The translations under genes were made by a program, and so were the position numbers. Positions 30,543 to 61,866 of a stretch of DNA of 64,000 bases are shown here, in pieces (position 1 is the first letter of the stretch; every line of letters begins with the position of its first letter). The stretch is from Plumapathes pennacea. Its lineage: Eukaryota > Cnidaria > Anthozoa > Antipatharia > Myriopathidae. The stretch lies in NCBI GenBank assembly GCA_964036295.1, contig OZ038470.1:15630436-15694435 (forward strand), in the 5' to 3' direction. The notes under the pieces were generated by a model, which saw only the letters and a list, made by a program, of their open reading frames with translations, was not told the origin of the DNA and did no database searches.

Positions 30543-32999
30543 TCACACACAGCCACAGTGGAACTTGGCAGTCTTGGGTTTAACCGACTTGAGAGTAAGT
30601 CCTGTACATTTAACATGATACCACTCGTCACAGTCATCACATTGTACCCAGGACACCAGGTGTTGCTTGTCATGTGGGTGGATACAGTCTACTGATGCGC
30701 AGGAATTTAACTTCGTGACTTCTTCAATACTTGTGTGGAGACGTCTCTTGGTATTCTTGTGTGGCAGTGTTAGTTTTCGGCGTTTCCTTGATACCACTGA
30801 AAATGACAAAATGTATAAGCCAGGTTCAATGTTTGCATGGATCTTACAGATAGAGCAGTTTTTGGATGGCTTTCATAAAACCAAAGCAGTCTTATTGTAC
30901 ACTGATCAGAAGCCAAAATAGTCTGCATTTGGTTTTACTTTGAAGAATAAACCAATCAACAGTGTGAGGAAACGGCATCACCACTTGCTTGTGTGAGAAC
31001 CTTGCGATCAGGTTTTGCTTTTGTTCCTGATTGGCAGACAATACAGTCAAACATTTCTGGGCCAATCCAAAAGCATAGCAAATGCAAAACCAAAGCAATC
31101 CTGGTTACTTTTGACAGCCACCGAAAACTGCTCTAAAGCAACATTTCAATGTCATTATTTAGATGGTACTGGGGTCAATAAATTATCATACTTCACCTTT
31201 TGTTCCTTTGCTTTCGACATCAACTTTTCCATCCTGTATTCGCATGCTTGTGAATCCACTTCTTTGACACACTGGGTCATCATTAGGTGTTGGCAAATTA
31301 TTGTTGTTTGTAACTCCTGAGGTATTGGGGCCTTCAAGGGAGAATATCTCATCATCACTCTCACTCATTGCATCTCCTGCAGCTATTGCGAATGCTAAGA
31401 GATCATCATTTTCCTGATCTGAATCACTGACTTTAGAACTGCAACCACTGATGCTAAAGTTCCTTTCCTCTAATGTTACATTCGACCTGAGAAATTAAAA
31501 AATGAATATTGTAAGTTTAGATTGAGAATTACAGTGTCATAATTTGTTGGTACATTACAGTACATGAGAAGCACAAAGCATAGAATACATATCGACTATG
31601 TTTTATGGTCACTGTTGAGATGAAATACAGTAGCATTTCTCACTACATCACTCATACATATTCTTCTTCATTGGTTGGGAGAATTTTGCATAAACAAGAG
31701 AGTTTGTACATACAGTACATAAACTGTTGAAAAGTATTTCTGCCACAGAATATTATTAGTCTTCATTCGGTTGGGTTAGGAATTCTGGAATAGGAATAGC
31801 TAAAATGACCCAAAGTGTACTGTTGCATGTTCCAGGGGAAATTTTGTATCTCTACTAAGTCCATTCAAAACCAAAGAGTTTTACCAATCAACATAGCTTA
31901 TTCCTATTCCAGAATAGACCCAATTGAATGTGGCCTTAGTGTCACTGTGAACAATCAAGGATACTTTACCTTCCATTTTTATGTACAGTAGAATCCAAAT
32001 TCTCCATCCAGGTAGAACAGCTTGGTGTGCATGGGGTCAGGAATGAAGACAAATTCGGCAAACAGGGAGCCACGGGAGCGAGGGGTGTTTTGGGGGAACT
32101 CTTCCCTTGCACTGAATTACTTGCAGTTGCCGATCGTGGAGCATTCAAATCACTGGATTCATCATTTGTGTAGATTTCCTCAAACTGAAAAGACAAACAG
32201 AAATAAATTGGACCATATCAACTTGAACTCCTCTGAATCTAACCTGACCTGCAGAAAACATTGTCCTGGTCCCCCTGCACCAACTACTCATACTAAACCA
32301 TATTTTACAGGAGGTGCCCCCAGGATCACGCTACCTGCTGGTACAAGTTGTGCTTTGTTATATAAATACAGTTGTAGCACACTTCAATTTACAGAATAAT
32401 TAATGTATGAACAGTTGGCATGCCTATAGTGACTTAGGGATCAGCTCGGGAGGGTTCCCGTGGTCCATGGGACAATTTTTCTTCATATGAATAGGGCCTA
32501 CAGAGAATTTGGCAATACACCTTCAACACCTATTCTGCTGAAGAAAGCTGATTTAGTTCAACAGCACTGTAACAGTCATGTTACAGTATATATGTTGCTT
32601 TACCTGAAAACGAAACTCCGACTTCTGCTGTTGTGCAAAAGTGCCCGGACTCAAAACAGCACCTCTGGTGTGTCCAAATGTCACTGTATCCCCTGGAGAC
32701 AATTCTATGGTATCAGCAACCTTACAGTCATTGACATAGGTACCATTTAGACTTGTATCACACAGTTTGAAGACTGTTTTGTCGTTTGTGTCTTTTTGGG
32801 TGGTGATTCTTGCATGTAGCCTGGATATCAATGCCTTGTTCTTCAATGAGTCCAAGAAAATGTCAGAGCTGGCTGCATTCCGTCCAATTACTGTCACCTC
32901 TTTGTTCAACCTGGGTCGAGGAACAAACAGTTTCCCGTCAGTCGTTTTAGAACCAGAAAACTGCAAGATAACAATGTATCTCGATTCTTCTGATAGCAT
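30543..32999 (-). CDS. TCF19: Transcription factor 19 (FHA + PHD finger)
   Basis: Four exons: 32999-32604, 32184-31970, 31486-31197, 30796-30543, totalling 1155 bases (384 residues; human about 345), with good GT-AG junctions. Residues 1-132 form an FHA domain with the conserved GR (39-40), SRLH (59-62) and NGT (85-87) that bind phosphothreonine. The last exon is a PHD finger with the Cys4-His-Cys3 pattern (CASVDC ... WVQCDDCDEWYHVKC ... HCGC), and the middle is acidic and Ser-rich. FHA plus C-terminal PHD is diagnostic of TCF19, a nuclear chromatin reader linked to cell cycle and histone H3K4me3 binding. I chose the ATG at 32999 because the protein then begins as in the family. Upstream sequence is open for 24 more codons, so an upstream exon is possible. 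Confidence 0.93.
30853..31133. mobile_element. TIR element filling TCF19 intron 3
   Basis: The ends are GAGCAGTTTTTGGATGGCTT and the inverse AGCCACCGAAAACTGCTC, flanked by TA on both sides, as for Tc1/mariner-type MITEs. It makes up most of the 400-base intron. Related copies lie at 34763-35133 and about 53030-53240. Confidence 0.75.
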
Positions 33000-34135
33000 A
33001 TCGTAGGGTATTTCTCGTAGCCATTCCAAAGTATCAACAAATCCTCGTTCGATAAAATGTGCAAAGTGACATCTGAAATTGGAGAAGTGAAATTTCGCCT
33101 CACGTGTATTAAATCACGCGCGCGTAAAAGCTTTGACGCATAAGACAAGAGCAAAACTCCACGCATAACAATTAAATTCCCGAAGTAATGCAGGTAATCA
33201 CACATTCCATTCACAACATCGAAATTTTAAATGCGCACCAAAATATATCACCAACGTTCTGTAACGTTGCAGGCTTCCCGATGCGACGAAGTCTGTATAC
33301 CGGCCTGGTCTGCTGATAACTTTCCGTCATAATTGGGTGAGGTTTTACCGAAGAAGATCGTTGTAGATTGCAGATGATCAGCTGTTTTACGTTGACTTCA
33401 CTGTTTGCAAAACAAAGGCGTCCGGAGTTGTTTCATTTCACGCGCTAAAAGATCACATGATATTTAACAACGCGCGTGGATTGCTGGGTAAAGCGCCTCG
33501 ATTTGAAACTACGTTTGGAAAATGACAAAAGAATAGAAAGGAAAGGAGAGACAAGGAAATTAAATATTGAAAACATAAAAAAGAAAGGTAGCAAAGTCCA
33601 AAGAACTACAAACCATACCTACCATAGATTTTTATTTATTGACTCATATTTTAAACTTTCAAAGCTTTCTCAAAAGTAAATAATTTAGAAATCATGCAAT
33701 CAAGCATGCAATGAATGCTATATAAATATATTTACACAGGGTGAGTGTGCATAAAAATATGACTATAAAAAATAGCTACTGTACAACCACTGATCTATAA
33801 CTTTAACCAGCAGGCCAGAGTGCCAACTCTCCCACTTTATGTGAGAGTCTCCCGCACGAACACAGAATGTTGGTTCATGATTTTGAACTTTTTTTTTGCG
33901 TTCTCCAACATCCTGCACGTATGAAGCTCAATAAAAAGTGCCATTTCTTAATCAACTTTGATACTCGACATCATGTAAGTAAATATCATAGAGAACTGGT
34001 TTTTGATACTTGTTCCAATGAAAGCTGATTATCTCACTTCTCACTTCTCATTACATCACTCAAACATTAACTTCTTGAATGGATGGAAGAATTTGTACAA
34101 TATGTTTGTCAAAGGGGTTTACATCATTCAATAAA
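33000..34135. other. TCF19 upstream region and SHLD3 3' spacer
   Basis: Includes the presumed TCF19 promoter (CpG-containing stretch 33100-33480). The remainder, 33500-34135, is AT-rich with no recognised exon. Confidence 0.5.
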
Positions 34136-36738
34136 TCAGAGAGTCATTATGATTCCTTGTGGATGAATACAGTAGGAAAACACGCCAACGTTCCCAAGCC
34201 CATTTTCGAGGATGCTCCGCACCTGAAAGGATGATGAAGAAAGTGTTAAATGGCCCATCTGTAATGTAACATGACAATGAATCAAAGCAATTATCTTAAC
34301 AGGTTCTAAACAGTATCAGAGAAAGAGTATTTCCTCTAATAAAATGGATGCTTCCCTAAATAACACACAAGAATTATGTGTACATCTGCTGTGCAACTGT
34401 GGGGCAACATTCATAATTTTGTCAACTCTTCCAATCACAATTTATTCTCACCTTCAAGGAATGGATGAAATCACAGTACAACCAGACTTCCAGATTAGTT
34501 TTCTAAACAGATAAATCAGAAAAAAAATTATAGCTTGAAGGATACTAATAGCCAAGTTTCATTACATAAAAGAGAGCAAAAAAGGGAATAGAGTTGGAAG
34601 AACAGAAAGAGACAGGAAGAGACAGGTAGGGGATACTGTAGGTACTGTATATTTAATAGGAAAAATGAAATAATAGGAACATTTGCAAAAAACATTGTAA
34701 AACTCAGTATTAGAAGCACTATATTACTACACTTTCAAGGCCATACACTTACAGTTTGTATAGAGCCATTTTTATATGACTGTCGAAAGTAATCATGTTA
34801 TTGCTTTTGGTTTTGTGTTTGCTACACTTTCCAATAATATTGGTCCTAACAAGTTTAGCAACAATCTTGGCCAATCAATAGCAAAAGCAAAACCTGGTTG
34901 CAATATTCTAACACAGGAAAGCAATAAAAATTGGCAATGGCACGTTCTCGCACTGCTGATAAGTAAAACCAATCACAATTATTTGGTTTTGGTTTTGCTC
35001 AATCATACATGTACTTATACTAATATTATTAGAATTAATAGTTATTGGTCATGGACATGTTTTTGTTCACCTCATTAGTTGGCTCTGTGATATGCTTTGG
35101 TTTCAGTTTTCGACAGTCATCCAAAAAGTGCTCTAATATGCAGTTTGACTGTAATTACCTTATATCTAGCATTGCAGTGTGGTAGATGTCCTTGTTTCAT
35201 GAAATGGCACACTTTTGTCCACAGCTCTCCAATGGTTAGAAATCTGGCTACAGTGAAAGCAGTTACTTGTCTCATGTATATATATATATATAGATACTGA
35301 CAGTATGAAATGCAGAAATGCACAGTGAAGTATTACAAGAAAATAGTGGCTCCATAATAAAAATATAATCAATAAAATTATTCAATGATAAAGATGATGT
35401 ATCATCATAATACCTCTGTTGGATTTCCTTGTTTCTTTTATAATCCACTTTCCTCTTTGCCAGTAACTGATCTTGTGCAAGATTTTCAGTTCCTCCAAGT
35501 TTGTCTCTTTGAAAGACCATAGCGTCATGTCTTTTGCCTTGACAGTTCTGTGCTTTATTTTAGGAGCAGCACACCACACCTGAAACAGAGGTCACATTCC
35601 ATAAACTCTGAGAGTTTACATGTATTGTAGCTCTCACAAATTCAATCTAATAACAGGATTTAATATTATAGTGTATTGAGAAAATGACAGGTGATCTCTT
35701 GCTTTGATCTGTATTGACAAGGATTTCTCTGAAAATATTCACCAATTTACCTTGAAAATAATTGGTAAGTCGGCATGCACAGTTCTGTGCACTGAATTTA
35801 TGATTTTTTTTATTTGTTGAAAAATAGCTCTCTTCCCATGGAAACATGGTAATCAGACCCTCAACCCAGCAGACTTTCATGAAATGCAAAATCCATACTT
35901 TACTGCACATAACATATGCATGTCAACTCTGCGCAGTGATTTTTAGGTCAAAATGATGACTAAATTGCAAAGAAATTCTTGTTACAAGTCAAACTATCAG
36001 CTTTACTAAACAGTATATTTTCTTCTGAGTAAGTTGGAAAAATTAGGACACATGTATGATAGATACGTGTATTAGGGTGTGAAGTGACATAACATAACAT
36101 AACATGACCATGTACTCACTAACTCACGCTGCTGTACAACAGAGGGTGACAACGAATCCCTTGAGCCTGTCAAGTGCCTGTGAGAGCTTGTCTGAATAGC
36201 TGAGCTTACAGACACTGCAGCTGTTTCTTTGCCTTTCACAAAATATTCCTTTGTACCACCATGACAGTTTAAACTCCTCTGGTAAATTGGACAAAACTCT
36301 TGCAAGACACTGCCAGTCGAAGAGTCTTGTGTTTCATCACACTTTTCTGAAATGGCTTGCAAGGAAGACTTGGATATCTTAGGTGGTTTTGCCTTAAATT
36401 CCAGGGACACAAGGCTGGAACTATCTGAGATTAAACAAAAATTATCAAACAACTTACTGTGCAGTGTAAGAGTGTACAGCTATACAGTTTAATAATGTTT
36501 AAGTTTACAGTTATCCAATGCATGCAATACAAAGGAACTTACCAAACCAAGGGATGAAAGGCTTGAGTTTGACACAGTACCCTTGACCTTCGTCTGTTGC
36601 AGGAGTCCTTGCCAACAGATTGTATGCAACTGTTTCTTCGTCAATGTCATTAAAACAAGAACATGATTCACAGTTTGGTAAACAAATGCATTCCACTCCC
36701 GTTGGCTGGAAAATAGTCACATCATACTCTGAACTCAT
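34136..36738 (-). CDS. SHLD3: Shieldin complex subunit 3
   Basis: Six exons: 36738-36543, 36424-36120, 35579-35414, 35247-35159, 34502-34452, 34222-34136. They total 894 bases (297 residues; human 250) and all junctions are GT-AG and in phase. Known role: SHLD3 links REV7 (MAD2L2) to the shieldin complex, which protects DNA double-strand breaks from resection downstream of 53BP1. Residues 61-65 are FIPWF, the start of the FxPWFP motif that contacts REV7, followed by a KPPKIS stretch (78-83) where the human protein has its REV7-binding prolines. The C-terminal part (168-297) matches the human eIF4E-like domain at LWTKV..F...G.LPHCNA, VWLYCDF and GVFSY.I.P.GIIM. The middle (85-165) is Ser-rich and not conserved. 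The comparison is from memory, not a database search. It is head to head with NECAP. Confidence 0.82.
34763..35133. mobile_element. TIR element in SHLD3 intron 4
   Basis: Ends GAGCCATTTTTATATGACTG and the inverse CAGTCATCCAAAAAGTGCTC, flanked by TA. Internal sequence (TTTGGTTTTGTGTTTGCTAC, CCAATAATATTGGTCC) matches the elements at 30853 and 53030. Confidence 0.75.
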
Positions 36739-36891
36739 GAAGCTAAGACTTACTCCATCTTTTCATACGACAATAGTGTTAACAGAACTTGTATACAGTA
36801 GAACAGCTGAAACCGTGCAAGCCGCCATTTTGGTCGCAAGCTCGCAGCTCGCTCGCTCCAGTCTCAACGCATTTCACTTGGGTGTTTCAAG
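36739..36891. promoter_or_regulatory. Bidirectional SHLD3/NECAP promoter with YY1-type sites
   Basis: The two start codons are 153 bases apart and face away from each other. The spacer has GCCGCCATTTTGG (36821-36833), and the NECAP start itself sits in AAGATGGCGGAC; both fit the YY1 core. Co-transcription from one CpG-type promoter is inferred. Confidence 0.65.
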
Positions 36892-41711
<4,820 letters not shown>

Positions 41712-42908: not shown

Positions 42909-45434
42909 TATCGACTGCGAAACGTATCTGCTCACATTAATGTTAATATCTACTGGCACTATTTCGATTTTCGTCCGCCATGTTCGGATCGCAACTAATC
43001 TAATCTAATCTCTAATCGAAACGTCAAATAGATCACTAAGTTTGTTGTCGCGCAATATAACTGTTCCTCGCAGACTCAATACATATTTCTACGGTTGACA
43101 ATTTTTCTTGCTGGTAAATGGTACTTTTACAGTAATGCTCGCCACTCATGTAAAACTCCATAGCGTTCTTTATACGGGGAAATAAAAAACTCGTCCTATT
43201 ATAAGTCTTTCCGGCAAATCTTGCTGACAGCAAAAAGGACTGAACTCGTAAAAGGATATTGTAGAAACTTTACTCTACTTTCAGTAATCTTTGGAGATGT
43301 AAATCTTTGTTTCCTTTGCCGATCGATTTCTGAGTTTTCCTCTTTATCCCATTTATTTTCAATGTTTCACAGGAAATTTGAGAACTCGAGCATTTAAAAT
43401 TAAATTACAATGAATTCATCCAATATAATTTCTAATTTTTCTAAAGATTTCAGAAGCGGACAGTGTTAAAGTTCACTTCGATGCAATTCCCCCTATTCCC
43501 CGGGATAAGTTCTGCTACGCACTGCAGTAAATAAATGAGAGATTTGACCGAAGTTAGCAAGAATGAGTAAAGCGAGTTTATCACAAAGAAAAGCCGATAC
43601 CTGCTCTTGAATTCACCGCTTTCATTCGGCTTGTCCTTATTTCTTCAGTTTTGTCACAATAGGTAATTACAACTAGTAAGAGATCACAAAACCAATAATA
43701 GGCTTTCAAACGAGCCGCACACCAAACTAAAGGAATCGGCAATAGCTGAAATGATACCCTTGGAAGTTCGAGAAACTTGTTTGCAATGTCAGATTCCCTT
43801 TCTGCGAAAAAATAAAAATAAAATTCGAAACAGTTTCTAGTATAAGCCCAACTTTTCCGAAGAAGTGCCTTTCTCATTTTGTTTTATCTTATTTTAATCT
43901 CTCGTATTCCGATATTTTCGATTTTTTTGGGCTGCTTTGTAAATCGACAACTTCACCGCCAAAACAAAATATTATTCGAATTAGCTCTTTGCGGTTCTTT
44001 TCTGGTGCGAGGTACGGCAATAGCTTTTAATGAACAAATTGGCTTATAATCCTAACTGCTCAAGTCGAATAAAACTATCAGCCGTCTACGTTGGAAAAGT
44101 TTCTTTAATAGTTCACTGAGATGCAGGAAATCACAGTATTTTTTCGCTTCGACTTGGGAATATGTATATTTTTCTACCGCTGTCTCCCCATGGCAACCGG
44201 AAGAAAAAGCGGCAAAGCGGCTTTACAGAAGCGAAAAACAGAAACCCTAAACGTGCAAGCACAAACAGATAAAATTCAATGTAAATTTGTCATTGCGATA
44301 TCGCAGGGTGTTTGTTTTGCTTGATCGCGTTCAACAATGTGCATTTGCTCAGCCGAAACAAAACTTTCACAAAAAATTTAAATAGCCGCCAGCTTGATTT
44401 AAAATTAAATTTCATATATTTGCCGCCAAGCAGCCCGCCGAAAGTGCAAGGAAACGAGTACTCAAAGAACACAGTTGGATATTGCTTACACGCGCGGCTT
44501 GTGGCTGAAATGTTTCGCAAAAGTTAAAGCGGAATATATGAAACTTAAGGAAATTTAAATCATGGTTTATCCAAAATTAAATCTACACCTCAGGAAAATA
44601 TGTTTTTTTGCGGAAAGAGTGTAATGAAAGGTCCGTCGGGTCTTTTGTTTTCAATACGTGTATTCCGGCTTGGCTTTTTTTCTTCCCGGTTGGTCCATTT
44701 CCTCAGCGGAACAGACTCCAAAAAGAGTGAAAAAGAGTCGGCAAACTTAGAAGCGATATCTTAACATGTCAAAGTCGTATTTGTATTTAAAAGTACTGAG
44801 ATACGCAAAAGAGCGGCTCAGAAGACCATTTCTAAAACAAACAATTTTCGGCAGAAATGATCGGCGTGTTCTGAGTTCGTGACGCGGCGCAATTCAAAGT
44901 CCGCGCCTTGGAGGTCAAGGTTGAAACCCCACTTTAAGAACCTGCTCGCACTTGTTAAGAATCGATTATTAGAAGCAAAAATGCGAGTAGCATACACGAG
45001 GGCAAACGCCAGGAATTTCTCATAGCACAGTTCTCTTTAAAACAAAGGCAAGACTGGAAGTACTCCAGCAAAGTCACGTCCCGACTGCACTGTCGCCGCA
45101 AAGTCTACATAAGCCGCATGCAAGCATGGGAAAAATTGACCAAGAAACCTTTCGCTTTGATTAGTTTTGTTGTGTGGTAGAAAGGACGGCTCCCACACGT
45201 TCCATAAGCTCAATACTGCGTGACACAGCAGTGTTCCTTGTGTTTACAAACAACTGAGCCATCTGCTGGAACTTTAGTGAAAAGTTGGAGTGCGGAAAGG
45301 AAACTCACGCGTTTTAAGTGAGAAATTCGCTTCTCCATTTATCTTCGTCGGCTGAGGCTTCTGCAAGTCTGCTTGTTTCACAGCATAAGAAACACTTTTA
45401 GACGCCTATACACCAGTCAGGACTAAACCGAACG
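42909..45434. other. Spacer between NECAP and the BH3 gene
   Basis: No recognisable exon on either strand. Short open frames lack splice partners. The right end (about 45000-45434) is less AT-rich and probably holds the BH3-gene promoter. Confidence 0.5.
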
Positions 45435-45818
45435 ATGGCGGCGAATAACGGACTTCGACCACGAAATGCCCTTCGGAATGACGAGGCAATATTCCATGGT
45501 AGAATTCCCAATGCGCGCGATATTAACAGCTCTGAACGTTTATATTCTCCGCAAAACGTGGGAAGACAGTTAGCCTGGATTGGAGACCAGCTTGAGCTTG
45601 GCACACGCCGTCCTGGAAGATTACAACAGATACGAGAAGATATTGGACGAAGTCTGGCGAGGGCAGGGGATACTTTGGAACGGCGTTTTCTACCAGGATG
45701 GAGACCTTGTGAAATTCTGTGGAATCACGTCCGAGAACTTGACTACAATCATGGCGTTGTTTTCTTGGTCATCGTTTGTCTCATAGGTTATGCAACTGAG
45801 TTCGTGAGAAATTTCTAA
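45435..45818 (+). CDS. Tail-anchored protein with two BH3-like motifs (BAK-like)
   Basis: One uninterrupted frame of 127 residues beginning in a good context (ACGATGGCG). Residues 42-54, VGRQLAWIGDQLE, match the BH3 consensus (L-x-x-x-G-D) and closely resemble the BH3 of human BAK. Residues 70-82, IGRSLARAGDTLE, repeat the same pattern. Residues about 107-121 are hydrophobic (VVFLVIVCLIGYA) and followed by a short charged tail, as in tail-anchored BCL-2 family proteins of the outer mitochondrial membrane. No BH1 or BH2 was seen, so it looks like a BH3-only or BIK-like regulator of apoptosis rather than a full BAK. The gene may be single-exon or this may be one exon of a larger gene. Function is inferred from motifs only. 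Confidence 0.7.
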   Translation: MAANNGLRPRNALRNDEAIFHGRIPNARDINSSERLYSPQNVGRQLAWIGDQLELGTRRPGRLQQIREDIGRSLARAGDTLERRFLPGWRPCEILWNHVRELDYNHGVVFLVIVCLIGYATEFVRNF

Positions 45819-51688: not shown

Positions 51689-52287
51689 TCAATTAATGAA
51701 TTATTCTAGTAACAGTGTACTTTCCCTGCAACTTGTCTTACAAGACATTTTTGCAAGACAAATTGCAAAGAGAGGGTGTTACATGGCTTACACTTCTTCA
51801 ATCTGCAACGTGTTTTGTAATGGCATTTCACTGCAAGGTGTTCAACAGGACCTTGATATCATTTTCTTCAACTAATTTGAGCAGAAATGTTTGGAGCTTC
51901 TGCACTTCAAGAACAAAATAACCTAATCTGTAGCTTAACTGTGATAAGTGTAACTTGAATGTGTAAAAAGGTGACTTACACTGTCTTGTAATCACATCCT
52001 GACATGAACTCAAGCTGGAAAAACTGGTCAAAATGATTCAAGACAAAATGAAGGGACTTGACCCCAGGCGCTTTCCTGGAGAAAAGTTGGATCTGAATGA
52101 GGACATGAACAAGCTTGATGACGTGGAACTGAACAAGCGTAAAGCTCTGATGAATGAAACATTCGAAAAAAACCAAGTCAGAGAAGATGACGAAGACTTT
52201 GTTTATGACAAGGAGGTGACTTTTGGTGAAGGAAAACTGGAATCTGGCTGGGATGATGAAGACGAATATTCAGACCCAGAATTCTGA
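50664..52287 (+). CDS. CEP19: Centrosomal protein of 19 kDa
   Basis: Four exons: 50664-50739, 51102-51153, 51352-51427, 52015-52287, summing to 477 bases (158 residues; human about 163). The first three donors are GT; the last acceptor is CTCAAG, weaker than usual, chosen because it keeps the LEKL start seen in the family. Matching segments are the N-terminal KCGVKYDPPTLVLYYD, RSMPLRDL, and the C-terminal DLNEDMNKLDDVELNKRKAL followed by FEKNQ, DFVYDKEV and SGWDDE. CEP19 localises to centrioles and the ciliary base, where it recruits RABL2 and intraflagellar transport proteins to start ciliogenesis. Confidence 0.93.
51656..51681. repeat. (CAA)n microsatellite
   Basis: Eight to nine CAA/ACA units in CEP19 intron 3. 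Confidence 0.85.
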
Positions 52288-58605: not shown

Positions 58606-59766
58606 TATTGATGTAGCTTTTTTGATCAAGTGTTCCACACTGCAATGATAAAACATGTATGACGCGCGAGTTTTTCGCCAGTCGGAAGGGTTGTAACCGG
58701 ATGGCGACCAGCCATATGGTCAGAGTTTTTGTTATGAACCTGAACAACGGGAGGGAATTCACAAAGAAAGAAGAATAGCAAATTCAACCGCACGTACAAA
58801 TATGCTTTTAGAATATAATCGCTTTGGACATAAATGCTTCATCTTTATCATGACTAAAGCAAGATTGAAGAAGTCCCGTCCAATTTGTCTTGTATTACTG
58901 GTCTTTCTATAACATTAATAATTAAAAACACGCGAGAGACTGGTGTTTCTTTTTTCCCATATGGTTTTCTATTTCTGTGTTTGTTAGGCTATCTATATGC
59001 GACCTTGACCGTCCCTGTTGTTTTATCTCTGCGTCTCGCGTGATGCAAGCGCGGCGCGGGCGCTCAGGCGGCGGGATGAACAGGCGCGAAACGCACGGGA
59101 CTCGAGACGGCTTGGCGACAGCGCGCGCAATTTATTAACAAATTTCACCATAAAAGCGTTGAATCTATAAGGACGTCACATTTAGTCTAGACACTGATAA
59201 CAACGCAGTCTAGACTCGGCAGTCGCCGCCTCCCAGACTCGAACGAAAACACCTCGTAATTTGCATGCGCTGTCTCGATAACCCTCACAGCAATTGGTCG
59301 ACCAGCCATGTGGTTTAATTGAGTTTTCATAACGCGAAAATCGATACAAAAGGCAACCAAATAATGTGGTGGGTACCTGTACTGTTTCTTTATTCTCCAG
59401 CCCCATGGGTTTGAATAATTCAGGTTTTGCCTCCTGTCTAATGTGTGGGAAAATAAAACATTGTACTTGTCGCCGTAGAGTTGATTATTCAAGTCTCGTA
59501 TGTTTATTCAAGTCTGAGATTTTATTTAATCGTTGTGGCAGCTGGTGTATGTCAAATCGTTCGTTCATTTGAGCGGCGGCTCATCCCAAATGGCGCTGTT
59601 GACATTTTTTTTCGTTTCTTTCAACAGGCCCATCACGTGCACTGTACGAAAAACAATAACGGTACAAGCAACGCCTCCACTGAGCATGTGCAGTACACAC
59701 GGCCAAAAAAAGAAAAAAATTAATACGTTCACACGAGATGGTCATTTCGTGCAGGGCGATCGATCA

Positions 59767-61866
59767 ATGATGGAAGCCGCATCTATTCATCGCACGGGAA
59801 ACGCGCTGATCAACCAGATTTTACAACAGTACAGAGACATCTCTAACGATTCAATATCGGGGCCAAATAGACTCATGAATAGCACCGACAAGAAAAGGTG
59901 TCGAGCATACAGTGATGTCAAACAGCGCGGTGATGTTGCGTCTAGAGAAAGTTCGAGGAAGGTTACTTATGCCGTGAAGATGCCGCCGAAAGACCAGAAC
60001 GGATTGAAGTTTAAGGAAACCTTGATTGACGGTGTTTCTCTGGTCTGCTTCAGTTTTGGAGGTGAGAAACGTTTATGTTTCAATGAACTTTTGACTAAAG
60101 TCCTCAAAGATTTTAGCTCTCAAGAAATTAGCGTTCTACAAGAGAGACTCCAGATTTTTTGCCCTCGGTGTACCCCACATCAGATGGAATTATTCAAAAT
60201 CGCAGGCGTTCTTCCTTGGCCATGTTCCATGGCCAATCTCATATCGAAAAGCGATGCTTTCCGGCTTCTCGGGTCACTAACATCCACCAGAGTTCCCCGA
60301 AGATCGAGCCGTGTATTCTCAGTCGATAGCTTGGAAGTCTACCACGAGTGTTTTGGGGGCTGTGTGGGAATGCTAGAGATTGAACTGTACAGTGACCCGT
60401 ACAGCAATTGCATAACGTGTTCGCAATGCGATGGAGTTTTCTCGCCGCGAACGTTCGTCACTCACGGCCATTCGTCTGGCGAGAGTCACACATGCCATTG
60501 GGGTTTTGACAGCTCAAAATGGAGGCTTTATTTGATGCTCTGCAATGAGCACCCGACGTTGAAAATGAAGAAACTCTGGGAGATGCTCACGAACAAGTCT
60601 TCTGGCAGCTCCAAGAGAAAAGGAAACCCCGAGCTTCTGAGTTGTGATTCCAAGGGTGATGTCGAGCGTGATTCTGCCAAGAGGGTGCGAGCTGACGGGG
60701 CGAATCTAGACGAAACGTTCAACGGCAAAGATAACGCGATGGAACGTGCTGGAAGCGGAACAGGGATCATTAGCCGTCGATCCGCCTTCCGTCCTTGGTC
60801 TCCATTACAGAATCGCGTAAAGGCGGAGGGAATGGAAATAATTGAGCAGCAAGGAAGTCCACGACTTCCAATTCCTATTCCAGCTCGACTCTTTGCACCT
60901 CACACCATTCCATACATGAGCTCTGAATGCCCATACCCTACGCCACGCTCAGCGCATTACACAGCTCAGTTTCAACCTGAAATTACGGCGCCGGAAACAC
61001 TTCAAGTCGACGAGACCCCAACAAACAGCAGAATGGGAGTTATAACGTCCACTCCTTCAACCAAAGACCCTCACTCTCTCGAGAAAACAGCCAGAGAAAT
61101 GCTGGAAGTTGCACGAAATGAGAAGTGGGAAGCTATGTCTACACAGCCATTGAACGAACAATCCTCTGCGAGGAATGCTGTAAAATTTCTGGAGGAAAAC
61201 ATATATAAAACTTTAATGAATTGCATGGAGAGTGGTCAGCTTCCTTCAGCCAGATCATTGAGTAGTTTAATCGCTCAAAACCTGGGAGAAGATTTGGCAA
61301 GACAAGAGATTACCATTTCTGAAATGTCCAAAGCCAAGGAAAAGCTCGAGAAGGAAGTAGATTCTCTGAAGGAGAACCATGCCCGTAAGATGGAGGAAGC
61401 TTTTGATGAACTGAAAAACACACAGAAAAACCTGCGCCTTCTGGAAACACGACACAGAGAAGAGGGCCAAGAACTCAACAATGTCATCTTCAAACTCAAA
61501 CAAGAAGCGAAGGCTCTCAACGCAGAGAAGAAGGAACTTCTGTCCAGGAACGAGAAGGAGGCAGTCCTTGTGCTGAAGCAAGAGGTTCGAGAGTTGTCCA
61601 TCAAATTGCAAGGCAAAGAGAGTTATTGCTCTGAACTTCAGAACGAGCTTCGTGCTCTTCACGCGTGGATTGATAGTCAAACAAGACCAGTCAAACATTC
61701 GGACGATGGACTAAAGAATTCTGAGTCAGTAATACGAACCCTGTATTTAGTAAACGGAAATGCAACCAGTAAGCACCAGAACAAAACCTTGAGTAAGGAA
61801 AATGGTGTTGGACCCAACAGTGTAGAGAGTTCAGAAGAAGAATCGTCACAACTGGTGCAATTCTAA
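59767..61866 (+). CDS. SKI/SnoN-family transcriptional corepressor, intronless
   Basis: One open frame of 699 residues from the ATG at 59767 (the frame is open upstream to 59533, so a longer N-terminus is possible; human SKI is 728). Residues about 80-172 form the Ski/Dachshund domain (VCFSFGGEKRLCFNELL, IFCPRCTPHQMELFKIAGVLP). Residues about 186-260 form the SMAD4-binding zinc domain (VYHECFGGC, ELYSDPYSNCITCSQC, FVTHGH, TCHWGFDSSKWR). SAFRPWSP at about 339-346 is a SKI-type segment, and about 520-650 is a charged coiled coil. Known role: nuclear corepressor of TGF-beta/BMP signalling that binds SMADs and recruits NCoR/HDAC. A possible poly(A) signal ATTAAA lies at 61899. Whether it is SKI or SKIL is not decidable by eye. 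Confidence 0.93.
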   Translation: MMEAASIHRTGNALINQILQQYRDISNDSISGPNRLMNSTDKKRCRAYSDVKQRGDVASRESSRKVTYAVKMPPKDQNGLKFKETLIDGVSLVCFSFGGEKRLCFNELLTKVLKDFSSQEISVLQERLQIFCPRCTPHQMELFKIAGVLPWPCSMANLISKSDAFRLLGSLTSTRVPRRSSRVFSVDSLEVYHECFGGCVGMLEIELYSDPYSNCITCSQCDGVFSPRTFVTHGHSSGESHTCHWGFDSSKWRLYLMLCNEHPTLKMKKLWEMLTNKSSGSSKRKGNPELLSCDSKGDVERDSAKRVRADGANLDETFNGKDNAMERAGSGTGIISRRSAFRPWSPLQNRVKAEGMEIIEQQGSPRLPIPIPARLFAPHTIPYMSSECPYPTPRSAHYTAQFQPEITAPETLQVDETPTNSRMGVITSTPSTKDPHSLEKTAREMLEVARNEKWEAMSTQPLNEQSSARNAVKFLEENIYKTLMNCMESGQLPSARSLSSLIAQNLGEDLARQEITISEMSKAKEKLEKEVDSLKENHARKMEEAFDELKNTQKNLRLLETRHREEGQELNNVIFKLKQEAKALNAEKKELLSRNEKEAVLVLKQEVRELSIKLQGKESYCSELQNELRALHAWIDSQTRPVKHSDDGLKNSESVIRTLYLVNGNATSKHQNKTLSKENGVGPNSVESSEEESSQLVQF

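Follow-up and report, generated by a model that had tools for sequence, protein, structure and literature searches.

A probable SHLD3 orthologue in the coral Plumapathes pennacea, with candidate shieldin partners in the same genome

Results

Structure and neighbourhood of the gene

The window analysed is a stretch of 64 kb (C9:15630436-15694435) from the genome of Plumapathes pennacea. Its minus strand contains a predicted gene of six exons (36738..34136), whose spliced coding sequence of 894 bases specifies 297 amino acids plus the stop codon. Coding exon 1 (36543..36738, donor gtaagt) contains the ATG, with an in-frame stop 5′ of it, and extends from the N-terminus to the sequence FIPWF; exon 2 (36120..36424, acceptor ctcag, donor gtgagt) contains the putative REV7-binding sequence KPPKIS and a linker. 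The C-terminal domain begins in exon 3 (35414..35579) and continues through exon 4 (35159..35247; TIGELWTKV...LPHCNA), exon 5 (34452..34502; EVWLYCDF) and exon 6, which includes the stop codon (34136..34222; SYCIHPQGIIMTL). The junctions are predicted from canonical sites and phases: all five introns start with GT and end with AG, and the exon phases are compatible. An earlier note on this DNA had proposed six phase-consistent exons coding for 297 residues, and its coordinates proved exact; the motifs that it listed (FIPWF, KPPKIS, LWTKV, LPHCNA, VWLYCDF and GIIM) are all found in the spliced product. The coding sequence of human SHLD3 is presumably a single exon, versus six here.

A polyadenylation-like AATAAA (33635..33640, minus strand), identified as a sequence match only, is situated ca. 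500 bases 3′ of the stop codon. Upstream, a gap of 153 bases (36739..36891) separates the gene from a NECAP-like gene on the plus strand (ATG at 36892), with a DUF1681 (NECAP) domain scoring 215.4 bits. Since both genes are divergent and only 153 bases apart, they probably share a promoter within this gap.

No synteny was seen by eye, among the window ORFs listed, with TRAPPC13 and TRIM23, the neighbours of human SHLD3, and a search of the 64-kb window with Rfam gave no matches. Downstream, on the same strand, there is a gene with FHA (52.4 bits) and PHD finger (28.9 bits) domains, like vertebrate TCF19 (30546-33113). Positions 1-25000 contain a tandem duplication (period ca. 11-13 kb), a recent local expansion that includes fibrinogen-like and EGF-like genes (by eye); the eight 300-base blocks sampled were all copied at that distance with 96-100% identity. 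On the plus strand, one ORF (45402-45815), possibly coding for a BH3-only apoptosis protein as judged by eye, combines a BH3-like stretch (LARAGDTLERRF) with a hydrophobic C-terminal segment. The same strand contains the C-terminal part of a CEP19 homologue (52003-52284, 82.7 bits) and an uninterrupted frame of 778 residues (59530-61863). The NECAP, FHA-PHD and CEP19 genes in the neighbourhood of SHLD3 argue for an animal genome.

The deduced product belongs to the SHLD3 family

The earlier note had assigned the product to SHLD3 (shieldin complex subunit 3), an assignment that direct comparison sustained. Using BLASTP, the spliced model matched human SHLD3 with an E-value of 2e-13 (58 of 247 columns identical, 23%); the human sequence used agrees with PDB chains over residues 1-74, and database entries bearing the name shieldin complex subunit 3 match it in full. 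We also constructed a profile from 14 close homologues of human SHLD3, mostly named SHLD3 and from amniotes where named, which share 23-29% identity with the model. This profile scored 64.6 bits on the spliced model (E 5.7e-17, for a nominal 100,000 sequences), whereas 20,000 shuffled versions of this protein gave 10.2 bits at most. Likewise, the Smith-Waterman score against alligator SHLD3 was 189, with a maximum of 79 in 3,000 shuffles. When the profile was run on the 2,746 ORFs of at least 15 residues in the window, its sole match at E ≤ 10 was the ORF containing exon 4, with 14.3 bits.

These scores bear on whether the gene might be a pseudogene, or its model an artefact of splice sites chosen by hand, as could be suspected from the shortness of exons 5 and 6 (51 and 87 bases), from the predicted nature of the junctions and from the existence of a second possible donor for exon 2, eight bases earlier (36128). 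Use of the alternative donor would break the frame. Moreover, the frame of 894 bases is free of stops across all six exons, whose splice sites are canonical and whose phases agree, and the SHLD3 alignment spans the junctions with a score that would be hard to get by picking, making this explanation very improbable.

The family signal is located mainly in the C-terminal part. A profile of residues 140-250 alone scored 52.6 bits (E 2.7e-13), against no more than 15.5 in 20,000 shuffles, bearing out the C-terminal match described in the earlier note. The REV7-binding stretch alone (residues 30-65) scored 9.6 bits, which is inside the shuffle range (best 11.9) and not significant. The profile of residues 1-75 scored 13.5 bits (best shuffle 8.9) and that of residues 76-139 had no match in the spliced model. 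Of 62 columns invariant among the 14 homologues, 35 are kept in the model, distributed as 12 of 18 in residues 1-75, 5 of 8 in 76-139 and 18 of 36 in 140-250.

A profile search had been proposed as a check on the assignment, and no family better than SHLD3 emerged from Pfam or the PDB. Searches with the spliced model produced no Pfam family at E ≤ 10 and a single, non-significant PDB match by sequence (E 0.61). Pfam did not return a SHLD3 family with the human protein either, only two chance matches below cut-off. The spliced model alone, searched against 5.8 billion proteins, gave 384 candidates, none of them at E ≤ 10. In the protein database, human SHLD3 produced 161 matches and a mixed alignment query 151; in both cases, the entries with a species name among the 120 listed were from mammals, birds and reptiles, although many of those listed lack a species name, and there may be SHLD3 entries from fish or invertebrates. 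Taken together, the sequence comparisons indicate that this gene is very probably a SHLD3 homologue, most likely a one-to-one orthologue, in a non-vertebrate animal.

Conservation of functional residues

The model shares with human SHLD3 (FLJ26957) the sequences FIPWF and PPxIS, a linker between the N- and C-terminal parts and, along the C-terminal domain, the motifs W-x-K, LPxCNA, W-x-x-CD and G-x-I; it differs in length, with 297 residues instead of 250, and in three functionally relevant positions, namely the last proline of FXPWFP, the first proline of PxxxpP and K243. In the human protein, FXPWFP and PxxxpP bind closed REV7, according to the available text of PMC7181697, and the double mutation H242A/K243A abolishes DNA binding by the C-terminal domain, as described in the available text of PMC10082759. 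In the first motif, FIPWF is kept and the last proline is replaced by Asp, at a position occupied by P or S in the 14 homologues. In the second, P57, P58, I60 and S61 are kept and the first proline (human P53) is replaced by Phe. The likeness to the REV7-binding region pointed out in the earlier note thus holds in part: FIPWF followed by PPxIS occurs in the right place, but each motif is one proline short and the stretch is not significant by itself. In the DNA-binding pair, H242 is kept and K243 is replaced by Pro. Because of the changes in two motif prolines and in K243, a REV7 clamp on this SHLD3 appears plausible but altered, and DNA contact by its C-terminal domain is less certain.

The C-terminal domain and the eIF4E fold

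The C-terminal domain of SHLD3 has a predicted eIF4E-like fold, according to the available text of PMC10082759, which would be the overall fold common to this domain and the eIF4E/4EHP family, although a sequence match is absent. Our evidence on the fold comes from a model of alligator SHLD3, made with 19 sequences; its mean pLDDT was 55, with blocks of the C-terminal domain at 64-85. Compared with the PDB, this model found human 4EHP at rank 2 and wheat eIF4E at rank 4, with weak E-values of 0.03-0.04; there were no matches at E ≤ 0.001, and unrelated designed and natural proteins scored alike. These matches agree with the eIF4E-like fold as published, without proving it.

This resemblance raises the question of whether the gene codes for a divergent eIF4E/4EHP-like protein with SHLD3-like words arising by chance, to which the published fold and the weak ranks of 4EHP and eIF4E would lend some support. 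Nevertheless, the spliced model did not match eIF4E families in sequence, either in Pfam (none at E ≤ 10) or in the PDB, and its score with the SHLD3 profile is high, so that this interpretation is hardly credible and the gene is better regarded as SHLD3.

Candidate partners in the same genome

The remaining components were sought in the same genome (290 Mb, 24 contigs). The SHLD2_C family identified a region (C7:15325267-15325701) with 41 bits, over a cut-off of 27, and matched none of 14 control genomes. The corresponding gene (C7:15325249-15328086, minus strand) was modelled with three exons (4087-3979, 3867-2650 and 2055-1250, in locus coordinates) coding for 710 amino acids. Its deduced product contains the domains SHLD2_OB1 (146.5 bits), OB_SHLD2_2nd (49.5 bits) and SHLD2_C (38.5 bits), all three over cut-off, and a CxxC...CxxC zinc-ribbon pattern. 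Human SHLD2 (FAM35A) has the same OB1, OB2 and C-terminal OB domains in a longer protein (904 or 835 residues in the available text of PMC6003645). By eye, the N-terminus of the model contains a hydrophobic strand followed by KAP, like the human REV7-binding strand, a likeness that failed a shuffle test, with 1,468 of 5,000 shuffles aligning as well. Comparison of the model with PDB sequences did not retrieve SHLD2, and gave only a chance match (E 0.58). A second SHLD2_C match (C1:12874762-12875079; E 0.019, 21.6 bits) was not counted as SHLD2; this region contains an intact frame of 352 residues, OB-fold/zinc-ribbon-like, which is probably RPA1-like as judged by eye.

An exon-by-exon search of the genome for SHLD1, which has low power, gave four weak matches, none over cut-off, the two best being near-identical copies of one element with internal stops. 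The search for SHLD1 and SHLD2 suggested in the earlier note therefore yielded SHLD2, with its three domains, but not SHLD1.

REV7 was found on a single contig (C1:33083622-33087355), where four exon matches follow one another in the expected order; the best is 74% identical to human REV7 and the other three 39-57%, and two of the four are weak when taken singly (E 0.07 and 0.9). When joined, these pieces scored 187 bits against human REV7 versus 41.5 against MAD2, and 25.4 bits with the HORMA family (cut-off 24); a genome search with HORMA by itself did not pick up REV7. Since the REV7 proteins of vertebrates resemble one another far more closely, the divergence of this REV7 outside its best exon argues against a vertebrate, as does that of SHLD3 (23-29% identity with the 14 homologues). 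An alignment by eye with human REV7 shows E101 and P188 retained, and Ile in place of L186; Q200 is also kept and Y202 replaced by Phe, as deduced from the last match, which is short and weak.

For RIF1, the Rif1_N family scored 19.5 bits in the genome search and 23.2 bits with the neighbouring pieces (cut-off 23), rising to 72.8 bits when exon pieces chosen by eye were joined. The predicted genes thus place SHLD2, REV7 and RIF1 in the same genome as SHLD3. The earlier note had envisaged a 53BP1-REV7-shieldin module of early animals; SHLD3, SHLD2, REV7 and RIF1 were found here, and SHLD1 was not detected in our search.

Discussion

In the human SHLD3-REV7-SHLD2 architecture, as described in the available text of PMC7181697 and PMC7923543, SHLD3 is clamped by REV7 and recruits a second REV7 together with SHLD2. 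By analogy with the human work, the N-terminus of the coral SHLD3 would be trapped under the safety belt of a closed REV7, and would also hold the SHLD2 N-terminus and another REV7 in the open state; its binding to both partners is inferred from that work. SHLD3 would so link a RIF1-bound break to the ssDNA-binding OB folds of SHLD2, and shieldin at the break would limit 5′ resection and favour end joining. Contacts with DNA and for recruitment would probably be made by the eIF4E-like C-terminal domain, whose chemistry may have changed, a possibility suggested by the loss of K243.

Alternatively, the SHLD3 homologue may bind REV7 in the service of translesion synthesis, mitotic control or meiosis, with the shieldin function appearing later. 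The changes in two prolines of the REV7 motifs, the loss of K243 and the failure to find SHLD1 would all fit such a scenario. However, the same genome contains a SHLD2 gene whose three OB-fold domains exceed their cut-offs, and to our knowledge there is no use for SHLD2 apart from shieldin. We thus regard a role in another REV7 pathway as unlikely, and favour a role of this SHLD3 in shieldin.

A SHLD3 gene was not to be expected in this lineage, since shieldin has been described mainly in vertebrates. The literature is divided on invertebrate SHLD2: in the available text of PMC6003645, orthologues of FAM35A/SHLD2 occur in vertebrates and not in invertebrates, whereas that of PMC6156606 mentions SHLD2 and SHLD1 in 'a few of invertebrates'. 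According to the available text of PMC11616998, which cites a review, there are no shieldin orthologues in yeast, fly, worm, zebrafish or frog. In our literature search, no title or abstract start among the matches listed names an invertebrate SHLD3, although database entries may exist, and we found no paper joining shieldin with Nematostella or SHLD3 with coral.

Since SHLD3 occurs with SHLD2, REV7 and RIF1 in one non-vertebrate genome, the shieldin machinery seems to predate the vertebrates by far. We consider it rather probable that early animals already possessed a working REV7-SHLD3-SHLD2 end-protection machine, acting with RIF1, well ahead of antibody class switching, that its first role was general control of end resection, and that it was repeatedly lost, since the literature describes flies and worms as lacking it. 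The occurrence of SHLD3 and SHLD2 in one non-vertebrate genome separates the age of this machine from that of class switching. Additionally, this SHLD3 shows which residues in contact with REV7 stay and which may change, and points to invertebrates as the place to test the ancestral role of shieldin.
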